From Tannerellaceae bacterium (GTDB taxonomy: Bacteria; Bacteroidota; Bacteroidia; Bacteroidales; Tannerellaceae), in assembly GCA_031288175.1 (NCBI GenBank), contig JAITRW010000040.1, positions 1 to 64,000 on the forward strand: DNA of 64,000 nt. Reading direction: 5' to 3'. Positions 25,709-34,632 of the stretch are shown here, piece after piece; within the stretch, counting starts at the first letter, position 1, and each line of letters begins with the position of its first letter. The notes below the pieces were generated by a model that saw only the letters and a list, made by a program, of their open reading frames with translations, made no database searches and was not told where the DNA came from. The position numbers and the translations under genes are program-made.

Positions 25709-26299
25709 TTAGTGCACGACAACCTTATGGGAAACGGTTCCTGCTTTCACGATATACAATCCCGCAGAGAGAGGGATCTCCTTCACGCCCTTCACGGTTA
25801 CTTGTTGCACAAAGGTCCCCGCCGGAGTATAGATGCCTACCTCTTTTTTCGAATCGAATTCAACACGGATAGCGCCCTGCACCCCGTATACCTTGTCTGT
25901 CACAAGTACGGTCTCTACCGATAGAAGTCCTTTCCGTAAATCCGCCGACTCAACATCTCCTTTTTCCGGATCGGACACGTTGTTTCCGGATACGGAGAAG
26001 TTAGCGCCCAACTGCACGTCCTTGTAACCTCCTAACTCTACATCCAATGTCTGCGACGCGACCGTAGCTCCAGAATACACCGTCAGTTTCCCGCCACTCT
26101 GTATCACCAACGTGGTACTTGAGGTCAGCGTACCGTACACCTGAACATCACCTGTGGGAGTGATCAGAATGTTACCGGCAGCGAACAGTTCCCCCACACC
26201 AATGGTGATCGGCGAATTGAATGTAGCCCCCAGTTGAGACCGCGCACTACTTACGAACAGTAAGCAAACGCCCAACAGTACAACAATTCTTTTCATCAC
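25709..26299 (-). CDS. Secreted protein with T9SS type-A-like C-terminal sorting tail
   Basis: Signal peptide; tail GIYTPAGTFVQQVTVKGVKEIPLSAGLYIVKAGTVSHKVVVH; overlaps the 26296 ORF by 4 bp. Confidence 0.75.
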   Translation of the reverse strand: MMKRIVVLLGVCLLFVSSARSQLGATFNSPITIGVGELFAAGNILITPTGDVQVYGTLTSSTTLVIQSGGKLTVYSGATVASQTLDVELGGYKDVQLGANFSVSGNNVSDPEKGDVESADLRKGLLSVETVLVTDKVYGVQGAIRVEFDSKKEVGIYTPAGTFVQQVTVKGVKEIPLSAGLYIVKAGTVSHKVVVH

Positions 26300-27060
26300 T
26301 TAAACACTGCTGTGAGGATACTTTTCTTGTCTTCTTCCGTGAGATTGTAGAGAGGCGCAACCTCATTGAGTATGGCTATAGCTTCTTCTTTCGTCAGCTT
26401 ACCTGCACTAAGACGTACTGTAAGGTCTTTTATCACCTGTACCTTAAACTCTGCAGTAGAGGTTTCCGCTTTCACTTTCTCGGTAGTGGCCGGTTCGGCT
26501 TCAGCTTTTTCCTTTTCGGCGGCAGCTTTAGCCTCTGCCTCTGCAAGTGCCTTTTCGGCGGCTTTTCTTGCCTGATACTCTGCCTCCCTGGCTGCGATTT
26601 CCTCCGGTGTAGGTTCAGGTACCTTTCCTATAGCAATACTCCCATTCGAATAGGAGAAAACAGATTTTATGGCTGCCACGTCCGCACTCAATTGTTTTAT
26701 ACTTTCTAAGAGTATTACCGACAGGCCTGCGTAATCTACAGCCTTGCTACCATCTTCATTCACGCTCACCAGTTCAGGAAAAGACTTTTCCAAACTTTCC
26801 ACGTCAAAGCCATATTTTACCAGCTCTGCTTCAGCTTGTCGTTTGCTGTTCGCCTGTTCGACAACCGTTATCCGTTCCGGAGGTAAATCAGCAGTAGAAA
26901 TAGGTTGGTAAGGCGTCTTATAGCTGACACCTTTGACCGTACTTAGACGAGATAAGGGATCTGATAACTCCTGTTCTGCTTCACGAAGTTCACTCACTCC
27001 GATACTAATATTTGGTGCCTGTATACGTTTATAAAATAATACTTTGAATGTTGACCTCAT
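26296..27060 (-). pseudogene. C-terminal fragment of an S74/tail-fibre-domain-like protein, fused at its N-terminus to 10 codons of the element integrase
   Basis: MRSTFKVLFY (integrase start) then KRIQAPNISIGVSELREAEQEL...YGFDVESLEKSFPELV..DYAGLSVILLESIKQLSADV. Confidence 0.75.
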
Positions 27061-27322
27061 AACTCAATGTTTTTTCTGGTTACAAAATTAGTTATCATTG
27101 AGTTACCGGACGGTATGCAAAACTACGCAAACCACTGAATAAAAACCGGTTAGCAGAAAATCTGCGTTTATTACCAAGTAACGGGATGGTAACGGAACTC
27201 CTGCCGTGTTCTGCTTAATTCTGTTTTTTCGCTTGTTACAATACCAAGCAAAACAGAGCGTAACGAACGCTCTTTCAGCTAATTCGCTACACTCTGCTTA
27301 ATCTTGCTTTCTGCTAAGTTGT

Positions 27323-28532
27323 TTATTTTATGTGAAGAAAGGCAGTGAGAAACCAAACGGAAACCTGCCTTTGATGTGCCGTATTACAGTAGACGGCGAA
27401 GTTAAACAATTCAGCTGTAAAATGGATATCCCGCTCCGTTTGTGGGATGTGAAGAACAACCGCGCAGCGGGAAAGAGTGCCGAAGCGCACAAAATCAATG
27501 TCGCCATTGATAGAATCCGCGTGGATGTAAACCGCCGTTATCAGGAGCTGATGCAGACGGACGGTTATGTTACCGCCACCAAGTTAAAAAACGCCTATCT
27601 CGGCATCGGAGTAAAACAGGAAACACTTCTAAAGCTATTCGAACAGCACAACGCCGAGTTTGAGAAGAAAGTAGGTTATAGCCGGGCAGGGTACTTTCGT
27701 CCGATACCGTACCGTATGCAAGCACATACGGGAGTTTCTTCCCTCTACTTATCACAGGGAAGATATACCGCTGAAAGAGTTAAACCTGACGTTTATCAAC
27801 GATTTCGAATACTTCCTGCGGGAAGAGAAGAAATGCCGTACCAATACCGTATGGGGATATATGATTGTATTGAAGCATATTATCTCCATTGCCCGCAATA
27901 CAGGGTTATTGCCGTCCAACCCCTTTGCGGGATATATCAACAGCCCCGAGAGCGTGGATAGAGGCTATCTTACAGAAGAAGAAATCCAAACGCTAATAGA
28001 AGCCCCGATGAAAAACAAAACATACGAACTGGTGCGTGACCTCTTCGTTTTTTCTGTTTTCACCGGATTGTCGTATGCGGATGTAAAGAACCTTACCACC
28101 GATAACCTGCAAACATTCTTTGACAGTAATCTATGGATCATCACCCGCAGACGAAAGACCAACACCGATTCCAATATCCGGCTGTTAGATGTTCCCAAAC
28201 GGATAATAGATAAATACAAAGGCTTTACGGGGGATAACCGTGTATTCCCTGTTCCGAGCAATAGCTGTTGCAACGAGAAACTCAAAAAGATAGGCAAACA
28301 GTGCGGTATTAAAACACGGCTGACCTACCATGTTTCGAGACACTCGGCGGCTACCACAATTTTGTTATCGCACGGCGTACCCATTGAAACCGTGAGCCGT
28401 ATTCTCGGACACACGAACATAAAGACAACGCAGATATACGCCCGTATAACCAACCAGAAGATAAGCCGGGATATGGAATCCCTTTCGCAAAAGTTAGAGG
28501 GTATGGAGAAGAATATTTGCGAAGCTATCTAA
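27323..28532 (+). pseudogene. Tyrosine site-specific integrase body, lacking its own start and frameshifted near 27686-27692
   Basis: LFYVKKGSEKPNGNLPLMCRITVDG..., then after about a 2-nt deletion GTFVRYRTVCKHIREFLPSTYHREDIPLKELNLTFINDFEYFLREEKKC..., C-terminal HVSRHSAATTILLSHGVPIETVSRILGHTNIKTTQIYA. Confidence 0.88.
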
Positions 28533-28598
28533 CCCGAACAAGGGCTACTATCGGAGTTTATCCGCGACCTGTCCGAGAGGGCTTTTCAAAAAGCCGTA

Positions 28599-28679
28599 GC
28601 TTATTAGGGCATTTTCTTAACGCATCCGTTTCACTACTGCTAAAAATGCCCCAATAAGCCAAAGGGTAAACCCCTCTGG
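28599..28679. other. Candidate oriT region: 17-bp inverted repeat plus adjacent hairpin, just upstream of the relaxase gene
   Basis: GCTTATTaGGGCATTTT (28599-28615) / AAAATGCCCCAATAAGC (28643-28659), then CCAAAGGGTAAACCCCTCTGG (28659-28679). Confidence 0.5.
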
Positions 28680-28758
28680 ACACCCCCGAAGCGGTCAAAG
28701 ACCGCACCGCTGAAAGCGGTAATCACGGCAAATTATTCACCCTAAAATTTACCTTAAA

Positions 28759-30003
28759 ATGGGCTTTGCAGTCTTACATATACAGAAGCCGAAAGGCAAC
28801 GACAGCGGAACGACCGCCCACATAGAACGGACGGTCAGCCCCGCCAACGCCGATAAAGAGCGTACACCCCTGAATGAAAACCTGATTGAATACCCGGACG
28901 GTATCGAAACCCGCACCCAAGCCATACAGCACCGTATCGAAACCGCCGGGATAAAGCGCAAGATAAGCCATAACCAAGTCAGGGCGTTACAGGTCATGTT
29001 ATCCGGCACACCTGAAGATATGCATCGCATACAGGCAGCGGGAAAGTTGGACGAATGGTGCGATGATAATATCAAATGGTTGCAGGATACGTTCGGAAAA
29101 GAGAACGTCGTATCAGCCGTTCTGCATCTGGACGAGAAAACACCCCATATCCACGCAACGGTAGTTCCCATCGTTACCGGTGAAAGAAGAAAAGCCGTAA
29201 AGAAGAAAGAGCAGGAGAACAAACAGGAACAGGACAAGCCCAATAAAAAGCAATATCGCAAGAAACCCGACGATACCGTCCGGCTATGCGCCGACGATAT
29301 TATGACCCGCGAGAATCTGGAATACTTTCAGGACAGCTACAGCGAAGCGATGAATAAATACGGCCTACAGCGAGGCATAAGAGGCTCGGATGCCCGCCAT
29401 ATCTCCACTCCGCAATACTATCGTGATTTATATGCCAAGAACGAAGACCTTAAAGAAGATATAGAACAACTCCAAGACCAAAAACAAGAGGTATATGACA
29501 GCGTCCGCGACCTGTACGACCGTAAGGACGAAGCGCGGGATAAGTTTCTCGATATGCACGATTACGTCCGGAATAAGGAGAAAGAGATTTCCGGTATTGA
29601 ATCCCGCCTGCAACAACTCAAACAGGAGTACGAGCCGTACAAAGCGCAGGAAGATATAAACCTGTTGTTTAGTGTATTTCCGCAATTAAATGAACGCTTG
29701 CGGATAGCGCAGCTATGCAAGGGCATTGGGTTGGCGGTAGACACCATTAAACAGCTATTTAAGGGCGAACCAATAACAGTTAATGGCAAACTCCATTCGA
29801 CCGAACATGACCGGGATTTTGCGGTGCAGGACGCCAAATTGCAGCTATTTAAGGAGAAAGGCGACATACACAGACTCCGCCTGAACATCGACGGGCAAAA
29901 CATCATCGATTGGTTCAAACAGAAATTCCAAGAGGTCAAACAGACCGTTAGACCCCATATCAAACCCGCTCCACCGAAACAGAATAAGGGGAGAGGGGTA
30001 TAA
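28759..30003 (+). CDS. MobV-type plasmid-mobilization relaxase
   Basis: HLDEKTPHIHATVVPI metal-binding motif; coiled-coil C-terminal half. Confidence 0.92.
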   Translation: MGFAVLHIQKPKGNDSGTTAHIERTVSPANADKERTPLNENLIEYPDGIETRTQAIQHRIETAGIKRKISHNQVRALQVMLSGTPEDMHRIQAAGKLDEWCDDNIKWLQDTFGKENVVSAVLHLDEKTPHIHATVVPIVTGERRKAVKKKEQENKQEQDKPNKKQYRKKPDDTVRLCADDIMTRENLEYFQDSYSEAMNKYGLQRGIRGSDARHISTPQYYRDLYAKNEDLKEDIEQLQDQKQEVYDSVRDLYDRKDEARDKFLDMHDYVRNKEKEISGIESRLQQLKQEYEPYKAQEDINLLFSVFPQLNERLRIAQLCKGIGLAVDTIKQLFKGEPITVNGKLHSTEHDRDFAVQDAKLQLFKEKGDIHRLRLNIDGQNIIDWFKQKFQEVKQTVRPHIKPAPPKQNKGRGV

Positions 30004-30141
30004 ACCCATACCAAAAGCCATAAAAAGGCAAAAGCACGGCATTAAAAGATAATTAATTGGCTGTATTAAACGTAGAATATCGAAATACATAATTTAATAA
30101 ATATTTTTTAGACTTTCGTGGACTGTTATGGAAATAATAAT

Positions 30142-30150
30142 TATCTTTGT
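30142..30150 (+). promoter_or_regulatory. -7 box TATCTTTGT upstream of the R-M operon
   Basis: Consensus match 27 nt before ATG 30177. Confidence 0.5.
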
Positions 30151-30176
30151 TCCCAAGAATAATTAAATTAGAGAGC

Positions 30177-32345
30177 ATGAAAACATTTAGCGAATGCAAA
30201 AACGAGTATAACTCTACTTATCAGAGTGTTGCTGAAATAGATTGCTTCTTGCCGATACACCTATCATATGGATTAAAAAAGCAAATAAAAAACAAGTCTG
30301 GATATCCAAATGAGGAGTTTTACAAATGGCAGTTTTTCTATTCACTTATACATTCGGGAATGTATGGAAAAGATTATATGGGTGCAGAAATTCAATTTCC
30401 AAAAGGGAATATCAGTTCCGATCCTATTAGGTTTGATGGAGCTATATTTGATGATAAAGATTGGATCGACCATTACACAAAGTTTCATACATCAAAAGAT
30501 CAAAGTTCTTTAGATTGGCTTCGTAAACATTTAATCGCTGTTATTGAGTTCAAAAAAGAAAATGGGAAAAATACAGAGGCCGTATGGAATCAGCAATTAA
30601 AACCTGCTCTCAAAGAAAGCGAAAACGAGTTCTGTTTAGGGATACTATATGATACAGAAAGGCTCTTTCTGTTTAAGAAACAAGGCAACTATTTTTTAAG
30701 ATTAGATGATGGATATAACCTTAAAAAAGAGCAGAGTAGCACAAAAGACTTATCTATCCATCTTACTGATGGCTATTACAAAATTCCTTTTTTCGAGCAA
30801 TTAAAGCAACGGATATATAATCCTCCCATTGATCGAAGCAAGCGCACTATTAATGAGTTAGAGATTATTACGGGCGCATATAGTTCTCAATTATCAGATG
30901 GCATCTCCAATATCCTAAAAACAATGGATAAAGTGAGCCTGAAGAATCAACGAGGATATGAAATATTAATTCAGATATTAGCTTTAAAAATATTTGATGA
31001 AAAACGCAGTCAAAAAAATTACGCTTATTTAGAGTTCTACAAATCGGACGAAGAAAAGGCAAAATTAGATCTCCTTTTTTTTGTTACTCCGGAGGAACGT
31101 AATTATATTAATCTTTCGGACGATAAAATTATATCATTTGTAGATAGAATGAGAGCTCTATATAATGAGGCTTCCCAAGAATATCATTTTATATTAAATA
31201 GAGTTGATACACAGACGATAACATGGGAAAAAGAAGAGCATGTCAGGACTATTGCCGAAATCGTTGAGCAGTTCCAGGACTATAGCTTTGTAAAATCACA
31301 TAAAACTGATTTATACCAGATCGTATTTTATAAGTTTGCAAGTGAATTTTCAAAAGCGGATAAAGGGCAATTTGTAACTCCTATTCCTTTGATTGATTTT
31401 CTTGTTCGTATTGTAAATCCCCGTAATGATGAAAGAGTAATTGACCCAACAGCAGGGATTGCTGATTTTCTATCGGTAGCATATGTTAATTCTCATTCAA
31501 AATTAGATGATAAAAATATCTATGGGTTAGATAACGATGAGCAGATGATCATGTTAGCTCAATTGAATATGTTATTGAATGGAGATGGTAACTCAATCTT
31601 AAAATACAAGCCGGACAAAGGCTCTATTGTTTGGAAATTTGGTGACCGTGACAACTTGGTTGAATTAAATCCCAAATTGCATAAAAACGGGAACTGGGAT
31701 AATTGGAGAGATGGCACAAAACTTAAAAAATTTGATGTCGTACTAACTAATCCTCCATTTGGCAAGGGCCGTAAGTACATTCCTGCCTCTCAGCATGATA
31801 GGGATATTATTGAAATGTATGAATTGTGGGATGTTGCAAGAGGAGGTAATGGGATTGATTTGGGGCTCGTTTTTTTAGAAAATGCCTACCGCATATTAAA
31901 GGACAATGGACGTATGGGTATTGTTATTTCCAATTCAATAGCATCAATTGATGAATTTGAGAAGGCTCGTGAATGGTTATTATCTAAAATGAGAATTGTT
32001 GCTTGTTTTGATATGCCTGCCAATGTATTTGCCGAAACAGGAGTCATAACGACTATTATTGTTGCTTATAAGCCCAAACCTAAAGAGCTTGAAAAAATGA
32101 TCAAACAAAACTATCAAATTTTCATGAAAGACATTACAAATGTCGGCTATAAAGTCAGCACAGATGATAGAGTAAAGCGATTCGACCCGATTTACAAAAG
32201 GAACATCGAGACACTCGACATTGAAATAGATGAAGAAGGCCAACCCGTATTAGATGAAGATTTTAATGATACAGTGCGAGATTTTAAGGCTTGGTGCTTA
32301 AGCCAAGAAGAAACTTTGAAAGACTTATTTATTAAAGAAAAATAA
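30177..32345 (+). CDS. Fused nuclease-N6-adenine methyltransferase (type I-like/type IIG-like RM subunit)
   Basis: N-terminal FDGAIF...IAVIEFKK (PD-(D/E)XK-like), C-terminal FVTP..DPTAGIADFL and VVLTNPPFGKG. Confidence 0.85.
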   Translation: MKTFSECKNEYNSTYQSVAEIDCFLPIHLSYGLKKQIKNKSGYPNEEFYKWQFFYSLIHSGMYGKDYMGAEIQFPKGNISSDPIRFDGAIFDDKDWIDHYTKFHTSKDQSSLDWLRKHLIAVIEFKKENGKNTEAVWNQQLKPALKESENEFCLGILYDTERLFLFKKQGNYFLRLDDGYNLKKEQSSTKDLSIHLTDGYYKIPFFEQLKQRIYNPPIDRSKRTINELEIITGAYSSQLSDGISNILKTMDKVSLKNQRGYEILIQILALKIFDEKRSQKNYAYLEFYKSDEEKAKLDLLFFVTPEERNYINLSDDKIISFVDRMRALYNEASQEYHFILNRVDTQTITWEKEEHVRTIAEIVEQFQDYSFVKSHKTDLYQIVFYKFASEFSKADKGQFVTPIPLIDFLVRIVNPRNDERVIDPTAGIADFLSVAYVNSHSKLDDKNIYGLDNDEQMIMLAQLNMLLNGDGNSILKYKPDKGSIVWKFGDRDNLVELNPKLHKNGNWDNWRDGTKLKKFDVVLTNPPFGKGRKYIPASQHDRDIIEMYELWDVARGGNGIDLGLVFLENAYRILKDNGRMGIVISNSIASIDEFEKAREWLLSKMRIVACFDMPANVFAETGVITTIIVAYKPKPKELEKMIKQNYQIFMKDITNVGYKVSTDDRVKRFDPIYKRNIETLDIEIDEEGQPVLDEDFNDTVRDFKAWCLSQEETLKDLFIKEK

Positions 32346-32351
32346 GCGACT

Positions 32352-33791
32352 ATGTCATCATTCATTACAACAAAATATCAAAATGTGATTGATGGGAAAT
32401 TTCAATTATCTCCTTCGATGCATAGAATATTCATTGCTCCTAATTCCAATACAAAAACTGTACGAGATTTCTTGAGCAGAGATTTACTTCGTACTGATTT
32501 AGGAACAGAAGTGGGCTCAATAAATTACGTGAAAGGTTCTTCAAAATATTTCATTAAGACTAAAGCACTTCAATCTCATACATATTTACCCCTTTTTTCT
32601 AATGAAAGCGTAGAGAGTATTCATCCAGCATCTTTCATTAATCATAATCTACGGACAGGAGATATTATCATATCAAAAGATAGTAATATTGGAGAGGTTA
32701 TTATATTAGATAAAGACTATCCTAATCATATGCTTTCCGGCGCATTATACAAATTGCCCATAGTTACTAATAAACTCTATTTATTGGCATTTTTAAAGCA
32801 TAAGTTTTTTAGAGAACAATTAGATGGCATTGTGCCCAAAGGGGTTACAATCAGGCATGCGGGTACAAAATTTTTAGATTGTAAGATCCCTCTACCAAAC
32901 AAAAATATAGAAGAAACAACGAAACATGTAGAATCGTTAATGCAACTCATTATTGATTGTGAGATTGAAATTCTAAATAAATATGCAAAAATAAATAATT
33001 TAATTGAAGAAGAATTATTTGCAGGGCAATCAGACTCGATATTTAAATACCAATATCCCACTTATAATGACACCATTCAGAATAGACGGTTAGATACAGG
33101 AATGTATTCAGAGCAATTTCAAAGAATAGATTTTGCCATAAAAAATTATCGTCTTGGATATTATTATATCGAATCATCAAAATTAAAAAGTGGCAATACT
33201 CCTTTAGTTAGACATATTGGCAATGAAGAAACTTTAAAATATCGATGGATGACACCCACAAATTGTTCTGATGTTGGCTATATATTAATAGACGAGCGTA
33301 TCAACATGCTTACAAAGAACAATATTAATGAAAATGCAATGCTTCTTATCAATAGAACATCAAGAGGTGGAGTTGGAGAATATGTAGGAATAGCAACATT
33401 CTATGATATTGCAGAACATGGGAAAGGTCATCACAATCAAGGCATATATAGAGTAACTGGGTATGAGAATAACGATCTAATCTTTATGACATGCTTTATG
33501 AATAGCCAGATTATGAGGAAATATTGTTCTTCAATCTGCGTAGGATCCAAAATGAAAGAAATAAAGCTAAATCAGTTTTTAAATATTCCTTTCCCGAGAT
33601 TTAAGGAAGATACAAAGACCCAAGTGATAAAACTATTCATGAACGACGTTGAAATATCTGACTTCAATAATCTATTAAACATTAGTAAATCCTTATCTAA
33701 TATAGGTGTTTATAAACTTCACTCTCTATTAGTTATACTTAAATCACAACTTGGCAAGAGGTTAGATATGATTGTAAATGATATTTACTAA
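32352..33791 (+). CDS. Restriction-modification specificity (S) subunit
   Basis: Two target-recognition-like halves (LRTGDIIISKDSNIGEVIILD..; GSKMKEIKLNQFLNIPFP); directly downstream of the RM gene. Confidence 0.8.
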   Translation: MSSFITTKYQNVIDGKFQLSPSMHRIFIAPNSNTKTVRDFLSRDLLRTDLGTEVGSINYVKGSSKYFIKTKALQSHTYLPLFSNESVESIHPASFINHNLRTGDIIISKDSNIGEVIILDKDYPNHMLSGALYKLPIVTNKLYLLAFLKHKFFREQLDGIVPKGVTIRHAGTKFLDCKIPLPNKNIEETTKHVESLMQLIIDCEIEILNKYAKINNLIEEELFAGQSDSIFKYQYPTYNDTIQNRRLDTGMYSEQFQRIDFAIKNYRLGYYYIESSKLKSGNTPLVRHIGNEETLKYRWMTPTNCSDVGYILIDERINMLTKNNINENAMLLINRTSRGGVGEYVGIATFYDIAEHGKGHHNQGIYRVTGYENNDLIFMTCFMNSQIMRKYCSSICVGSKMKEIKLNQFLNIPFPRFKEDTKTQVIKLFMNDVEISDFNNLLNISKSLSNIGVYKLHSLLVILKSQLGKRLDMIVNDIY

Positions 33792-34084
33792 CTGAACATT
33801 TCCTACTGTTCATTGATAAATATGTAGGCAATATTTGGGCAGCTTCGCAGTTCCAATGAAACCCTGCCTATTTTTTGATATTACTAAGCATAATGAACTA
33901 ATCTTCTATGTTATCTGAACACAAAGGTATATTCCAAAAGCGAAACGTCAACACCAAGCCCTGCGGGTTTTACGGAAAATCTCCACACCTGCGCTACGCT
34001 CCGGGTAGTATTTTCCGCAAAAGTGTTGCCTTATTCGCTCTTTCCATAAGAGGGGTGTTTATCAGATAAAGAAAGAGAAAAAAT

Positions 34085-34252
34085 ATGCGTGTTGTTTCAA
34101 AAATATTGCTTACTTTTGGCGTGAGTTATTTGACAGTATTGTACCGCAATTCGCTGAAATACGCACGGTTACTAACTCGTTACCTCAATAATCCGAAAAC
34201 TCGACTAAAAGTTTATTCTTCAATCGGTTATGCCAAACCGATGAAAATCTAA
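34085..34252 (+). CDS. Small ORF at the right end of the mobile element, hypothetical
   Basis: MRVVSKILLTFGVSYLTVLYRNSLKYARLLTRYLNNPKTRLKVYSSIGYAKPMKI*; stop codon lies at the element junction. Confidence 0.35.
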   Translation: MRVVSKILLTFGVSYLTVLYRNSLKYARLLTRYLNNPKTRLKVYSSIGYAKPMKI

Positions 34253-34632
34253 AATATGAAATCACCATTGTACACATTTTCAGCCACCTTAGTTAGAGAA
34301 GTAATAGATGACGAGAATCCTTCGGTAAATACAGTACCCATATAACCATGTAAGTGTAGCTTGTAAGACCGATAAGTCAAACCATTATCATATTCTCCTA
34401 CAAAAACATCCAAGAATTGGTATACCGTCTGACCAAAGGATAAACGCGACGGTGAACCCCACGAAGTCTTGGTATTAATTTGCAGCGAAGACAAGGACGA
34501 CGAATCTGTACTAAAGAGATTCGGCCCTACTAGCACCTTCCCGTTAGGGAATACTTTCTCTTGTGCCTCTACCGGCACCACACTCAGCAGCACTGCCGCC
34601 GATGCGCTTAATAACGATAAAGCTCTTTTCAT
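34249..34632 (-). pseudogene. N-terminal fragment of the secreted S74/tail-fibre-like protein disrupted by the mobile element
   Basis: Signal peptide MKRALSLLSASAAVLLSVVPVEAQ, ends NVYNGDFIF* at the junction; the rest lies at 26296-27030 in the same orientation. Confidence 0.75.

Follow-up and report, generated by a model that had tools for sequence, protein, structure and literature searches.

AT-rich targeting is known for the Bacteroides mobilizable element Tn5520 (PMC5704250). In Bacteroidales, a second type of DNA rearrangement is represented by invertons, i.e. promoter segments placed between inverted repeats and adjoined by a tyrosine recombinase gene (PMC8748976, PMC11892184). Invertases encoded in the vicinity of invertons are reported to be, as a rule, beyond regulation by these, although inverton group 145 may be an exception (PMC11892184). 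When inverted cores are present on one molecule, a tyrosine recombinase acting on them produces an inversion (PMC8371274). In the case of the archaeal suicidal integrases (SSV, pT26-2, pTN3), recombination inside the integrase gene detaches its N-terminal part from the catalytic portion, and the gene is split at every integration (PMC8371274). The element described here resembles each of these systems in part.

It resides in the window, i.e. the whole 64-kb stretch of DNA that was analysed, which is contig 42 of a 1.60-Mb assembly (77% complete) of a Tannerellaceae bacterium; the flipped segment discussed below is present once in this assembly. The following features were distinguished:

26296-27060, minus strand: fusion open reading frame of 254 aa in which integrase codons 1-10 continue without a change of frame into the C-terminal part of a host gene
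27031-27331, minus strand: inverted segment comprising the left end of the element, the integrase promoter region and integrase codons 1-10 (reverse alignment to about 75 relatives)
27031-27039, plus strand: core at the host junction, ATAAAATAA; its positions 27032-27038 form the 7-bp att core TAAAATA, which most relatives also have as their left core
27061-27104, no strand: operator-like inverted repeat AACTCAATG/CATTGAGTT straddling the -7 box (arms at 27061-27069 and 27096-27104)
27083-27090, minus strand: Bacteroidales-type -7 box TAATTTTG of the integrase promoter, here pointing left (conserved at the same place in relatives)
27323-27331, minus strand: the core a second time, in inverted orientation (TTATTTTAT), where the integrase gene is broken (integrase codons 8-10 in relatives)
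27332-28532, plus strand: integrase body with arm-binding and catalytic domains, lacking the first ten codons (Pfam PF17293 and PF00589 on its two ORFs)
28759-30003, plus strand: MobV-family relaxase (NF041497, 212.9 bits against a cut-off of 100; PF01076)
30147-32345, plus strand: N6-adenine DNA methylase, restriction-modification cargo (PF02384, PF07669; mad2 and Type I/II methylase models)
32352-33791, plus strand: type I-like specificity subunit (PF01420; Specificity_I models)
34250-34256, plus strand: right att core TAAAATA, the normal right end of the element (the preceding sequence matches the right ends of relatives, GGTTA..AAACCGATGAAAATC TAAAATA)
34257-34632, minus strand: N-terminal fragment of the host gene, with a secretion-signal-like start (the C-terminal part is 26296-27030)

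Judging from its predicted genes (tyrosine integrase, MobV relaxase, methylase and S subunit), this 7.2-kb element is an integrative mobilizable element of Bacteroidales and, apart from the inversion, appears to be an ordinary one. It encodes tyrosine integrase domains (in a frameshifted gene) and a relaxase scoring above the cut-off, and directly repeated att cores (TAAAATA at 27032 and 34250) flank it within an interrupted host site. Joined at the 7-bp core, the flanks read NGDFIFYKRIQAPN in frame, and homologues spanning the junction are present in G402 and, as a paralogue, on contig G000:C40; the element therefore splits a host gene. The cargo region (30147-33791) has no annotated separate restriction subunit beside the methylase and the S subunit; mad2/mad5 of the methylation-associated defence system are among its best matches, with scores under the NCBI cut-offs.

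Relative to about 75 related elements, segment 27031-27331 of the window is inverted: it aligns to them on the opposite strand, whereas the integrase body, from approximately 27323 onwards, aligns on the same strand. When the segment was re-inverted by a script, it formed a single continuous match together with the body (e.g. 1,510 bp at 88.9% to L002, from Bacteroides propionicifaciens DSM 19291). The conserved stretch of the aligned relatives has its outer limit at the core TAAAATAAAC, roughly 270 bp ahead of the integrase ATG, and is bordered there by host DNA; in relatives with ATAAAATA the left core lies 269-272 bp upstream of the ATG. The equivalent distance in the window, from the flipped ATG (27060) to the end of the far core (27331), is 271 bp; the breakpoints thus fall on the left att core and on integrase codons 7-10. 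Both coincide with the 9-mer ATAAAATAA/TTATTTTAT, which is common to these two sites and occurs across the 64-kb window once in forward orientation (27031), twice in reverse (3179 and 27323) and nowhere else.

A preliminary description of this locus had listed three copies of the core, and all of them were found: ATAAAATAA at 27031-27039, TTATTTTAT at 27323-27331 and TAAAATAT at 34250-34257. It had proposed that recombination at att cores inverted either the 0.3-kb promoter and start segment or the 6.9-kb body (27323-34257). The alignments described above, in both orientations and after re-inversion, bear out the former, while inversion of the body is excluded because the right end at 34250 is normal and directly joined to host DNA.

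The sequence MRSTFKVLFY had been regarded as the normal start of the integrase, and this agrees with the relatives, in which intact MRSTFKVLFYVKKGSEKPNG-type integrases are indeed present: an MRSTF-type start (in one case with TTG) is continuous with a VKKGSEK-type body in 77 of 80, and SRSTFK is found in the other three. In the window, the first ten codons are detached from the body, as had been noted, but the view that the body lacks a start needs qualification: a GTG is available at 27332, while the scanned region holds no promoter-like -7 box facing it. A feature absent from the preliminary account is a frameshift near 27683-27685, where the gene is 2 nt shorter than in L002, L005, L013 and L020, and which splits the body into two ORFs. 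Unless the frameshift is a sequencing error, the integrase is thus broken twice, by the inversion and by the frameshift.

Both the -7 box TAATTTTG and the ten initial codons of the integrase are now directed at the C-terminal fragment of the host gene. The suggested capture of the integrase start by this fragment is supported by the in-frame 254-aa ORF, a fusion that is expected by chance in one of three cases; a useful product is unlikely, since the host fragment lacks the N-terminal signal-like part. The inverted repeat previously reported at 27061-27104 is present as well. It reaches just before the ATG, and most of 76 relatives have it at the corresponding position, with arms that covary (AACTCAATG/CATTGAGTT in the window versus AACTCACT/AGTGAGTT in relatives). 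Being conserved around the integrase -7 box, it looks like an operator, and it was rejected as a site of inversion.

Further inverted copies were sought with a query that joined the N-terminus expected of an intact integrase to the body and was run on genome_contigs and gave 80 relatives; in each of them the N-terminal codons are continuous with the body, and none is inverted. Since the same protein query reports the window itself as a match starting at residue 6 (residues 6-129), inverted copies would be recognised. No second inverted copy turned up among the close matches when 394 genomes of the order, 125 of the family and 12, 5, 60, 9 and 101 of other families were searched (roughly 700 genomes in all, the sets partly overlapping). 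The OFF-junction pattern occurs, among 388 genomes, in the window only. A DNA search of plasmids gave no near match, and the plasmid-borne relatives detected by protein search have normal starts. Three candidates were rejected as second inverted copies: G191 and G135 both have a normal MRSTF start and orientation, and G166, a decayed remnant, has a normally oriented left end. Across relatives only the ON orientation is therefore seen, with the window as the exception, in collections that hold one consensus genome per species, where a minority orientation would stay invisible. Other arrangements were noticed in the same material. In Phocaeicola massiliensis (L051:8679-8745), a right-end-like sequence directly abuts the left end of an element, as in a tandem integration or an attP-like junction. 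One strain of Prevotellamassilia timonensis carries several copies of this element family (L063, L065, L066 and L070), two of which begin where their contig ends, at the left att core.

A look-alike of the att core within the N-terminal codons is common in this integrase family. The exact codon core (TAAAATA) is present in 38 of 79 relatives and lost in about half, i.e. one of the two repeats is not conserved family-wide. The observed 38 compare with 2.9 exact cores expected from the codon usage of the body and with about 16 expected from an N-terminal baseline (positions 5-12), in which TTA/CTA make up 32% of Leu codons and TTT 65% of Phe codons; the excess shrinks because N-terminal codons are AT-rich in general. 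Leu codon 8 is TTA or CTA in 38 of 55 distinct starts against the baseline of 32%, a comparison uncorrected for shared ancestry. As evidence for selection, the excess of the codon core would thus be weak and confounded by ancestry. The insertion sites of relatives have in common only TAAAATA and a weak AT preference, and are otherwise variable; targeting is therefore degenerate, and many targets are tolerated. In its ON state, the codon core with its flank (TAAAATAATAC) resembles the right halves of host targets (e.g. TAAAATAATAT), and it ranks fifth, not first, among the target-like sites of the element, which contains further TAAAATA sites at 31324, 31600 and 33235.

We consider it probable (roughly 0.7) that the inversion was self-inflicted, i.e. 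that this or a related integrase recombined the left core with the codon core, and that such events are rare and mostly silence the integrase that causes them. The inversion and its breakpoints are shown directly by the alignments, whereas the identity of the recombinase, its silencing and the infrequency of the event are what we infer. According to this proposal, a tyrosine integrase that integrates at AT-rich sites with the 7-bp core TAAAATA would encounter a core look-alike in its codons 8-10 (Leu-Phe-Tyr, TTA TTT TAT), inverted with respect to the left att core, which lies 271 bp ahead of the ATG. The element's own integrase, or that of a relative acting in trans, would recombine the two, and because the cores are inverted the 0.3-kb piece between them would flip. 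The integrase would thereby lose its promoter and first ten codons, leaving the element silenced and stranded, and the displaced promoter would read into the host gene fragment. Damage such as the frameshift in the body would be expected of an integrase gene on which selection had ceased. As a frameshifted integrase could not have acted afterwards, the proposal has to suppose either a particular order of events or a helper in trans. Two further points speak against self-inflicted inversion: codons 8-10 are not the sole available target, and the bias of Leu codon 8 towards TTA/CTA is a possible sign of selection.

The other explanations differ from it in the purpose, the place or the agent of the flip. 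An element that regularly inverts the stretch from left core to codon core, and with it the integrase promoter, so as to switch its mobility on and off, would have the very anatomy observed: the -7 box TAATTTTG lies within 27031-27331, 9-bp inverted cores stand at both ends, and a recombinase gene adjoins. Such programmed inversion could also account for the number of exact codon cores, which exceeds both estimates of expectation. However, the lack of a second inverted copy in the 80 loci and in the genome searches, with a query able to detect it, the restriction of the OFF junction to the window and the loss of the codon core from about half of the relatives make it unlikely; the return from OFF to ON would moreover need an outside integrase, and that of the window is frameshifted. 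That the two cores form a functional switch which reversibly disconnects the integrase from its promoter, with a related integrase restoring the ON state in trans, we regard as rather improbable. Of the two alternatives offered in the preliminary description, self-inactivation after insertion consequently fits best (a single inverted case with a frameshifted integrase), and the on/off switch is disfavoured by the same lack of inverted copies, the unconserved codon core and the frameshift.

Recombination between attP and attB-like sites is the usual integrative reaction of tyrosine integrases. The flip may accordingly have taken place in the excised circle, between the attP core and the codon core, followed by integration of the rearranged circle into the host gene; the final sequence would be identical, and the tandem or attP-like junction of right and left ends in L051 is in keeping with this course of events. 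Yet it is unlikely, as the att site of such a circle would be a hybrid that lacks the proper left end, and the supply of integrase would already be cut off. An unrelated recombinase (e.g. a host invertase) or illegitimate recombination at the 9-bp repeat might also have flipped the segment: short repeats are enough for rare illegitimate events, and invertases are numerous in Bacteroidales (PMC11892184, PMC8748976). Since both breakpoints coincide exactly with att core sequence of the element itself, this is very improbable.

The locus thus provides a record, in natural sequence, of an integrase family with degenerate AT-rich targets that apparently hit its own gene and stranded the element; and since the core look-alike is common at the N-terminus, accidental or regulated self-inversion should be directly testable in this family. 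Compared with Tn5520, the element is similar in having an integrase and a mobilization gene, a small size and AT-rich targets, and the likeness rests on these features; it differs in being larger, in its methylase/S-subunit cargo and in the inversion of the promoter and first ten codons. With the invertons of Bacteroidales it shares the general architecture outlined at the beginning, but its repeats are the att cores of the element, one of them inside a coding sequence, a single orientation is seen per locus, and the affected gene is that of the integrase itself. As with the archaeal suicidal integrases, a recombination inside the integrase gene has parted its N-terminal portion from the catalytic one; here, however, the split arose from a rare inversion, and the att core of relatives lies about 270 bp upstream of the start and not inside the gene. 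On the present comparison, the element therefore seems to depart from each of the latter two systems in one defining trait: conserved repeats in the case of invertons, and an attP inside the gene in the case of suicidal integrases.
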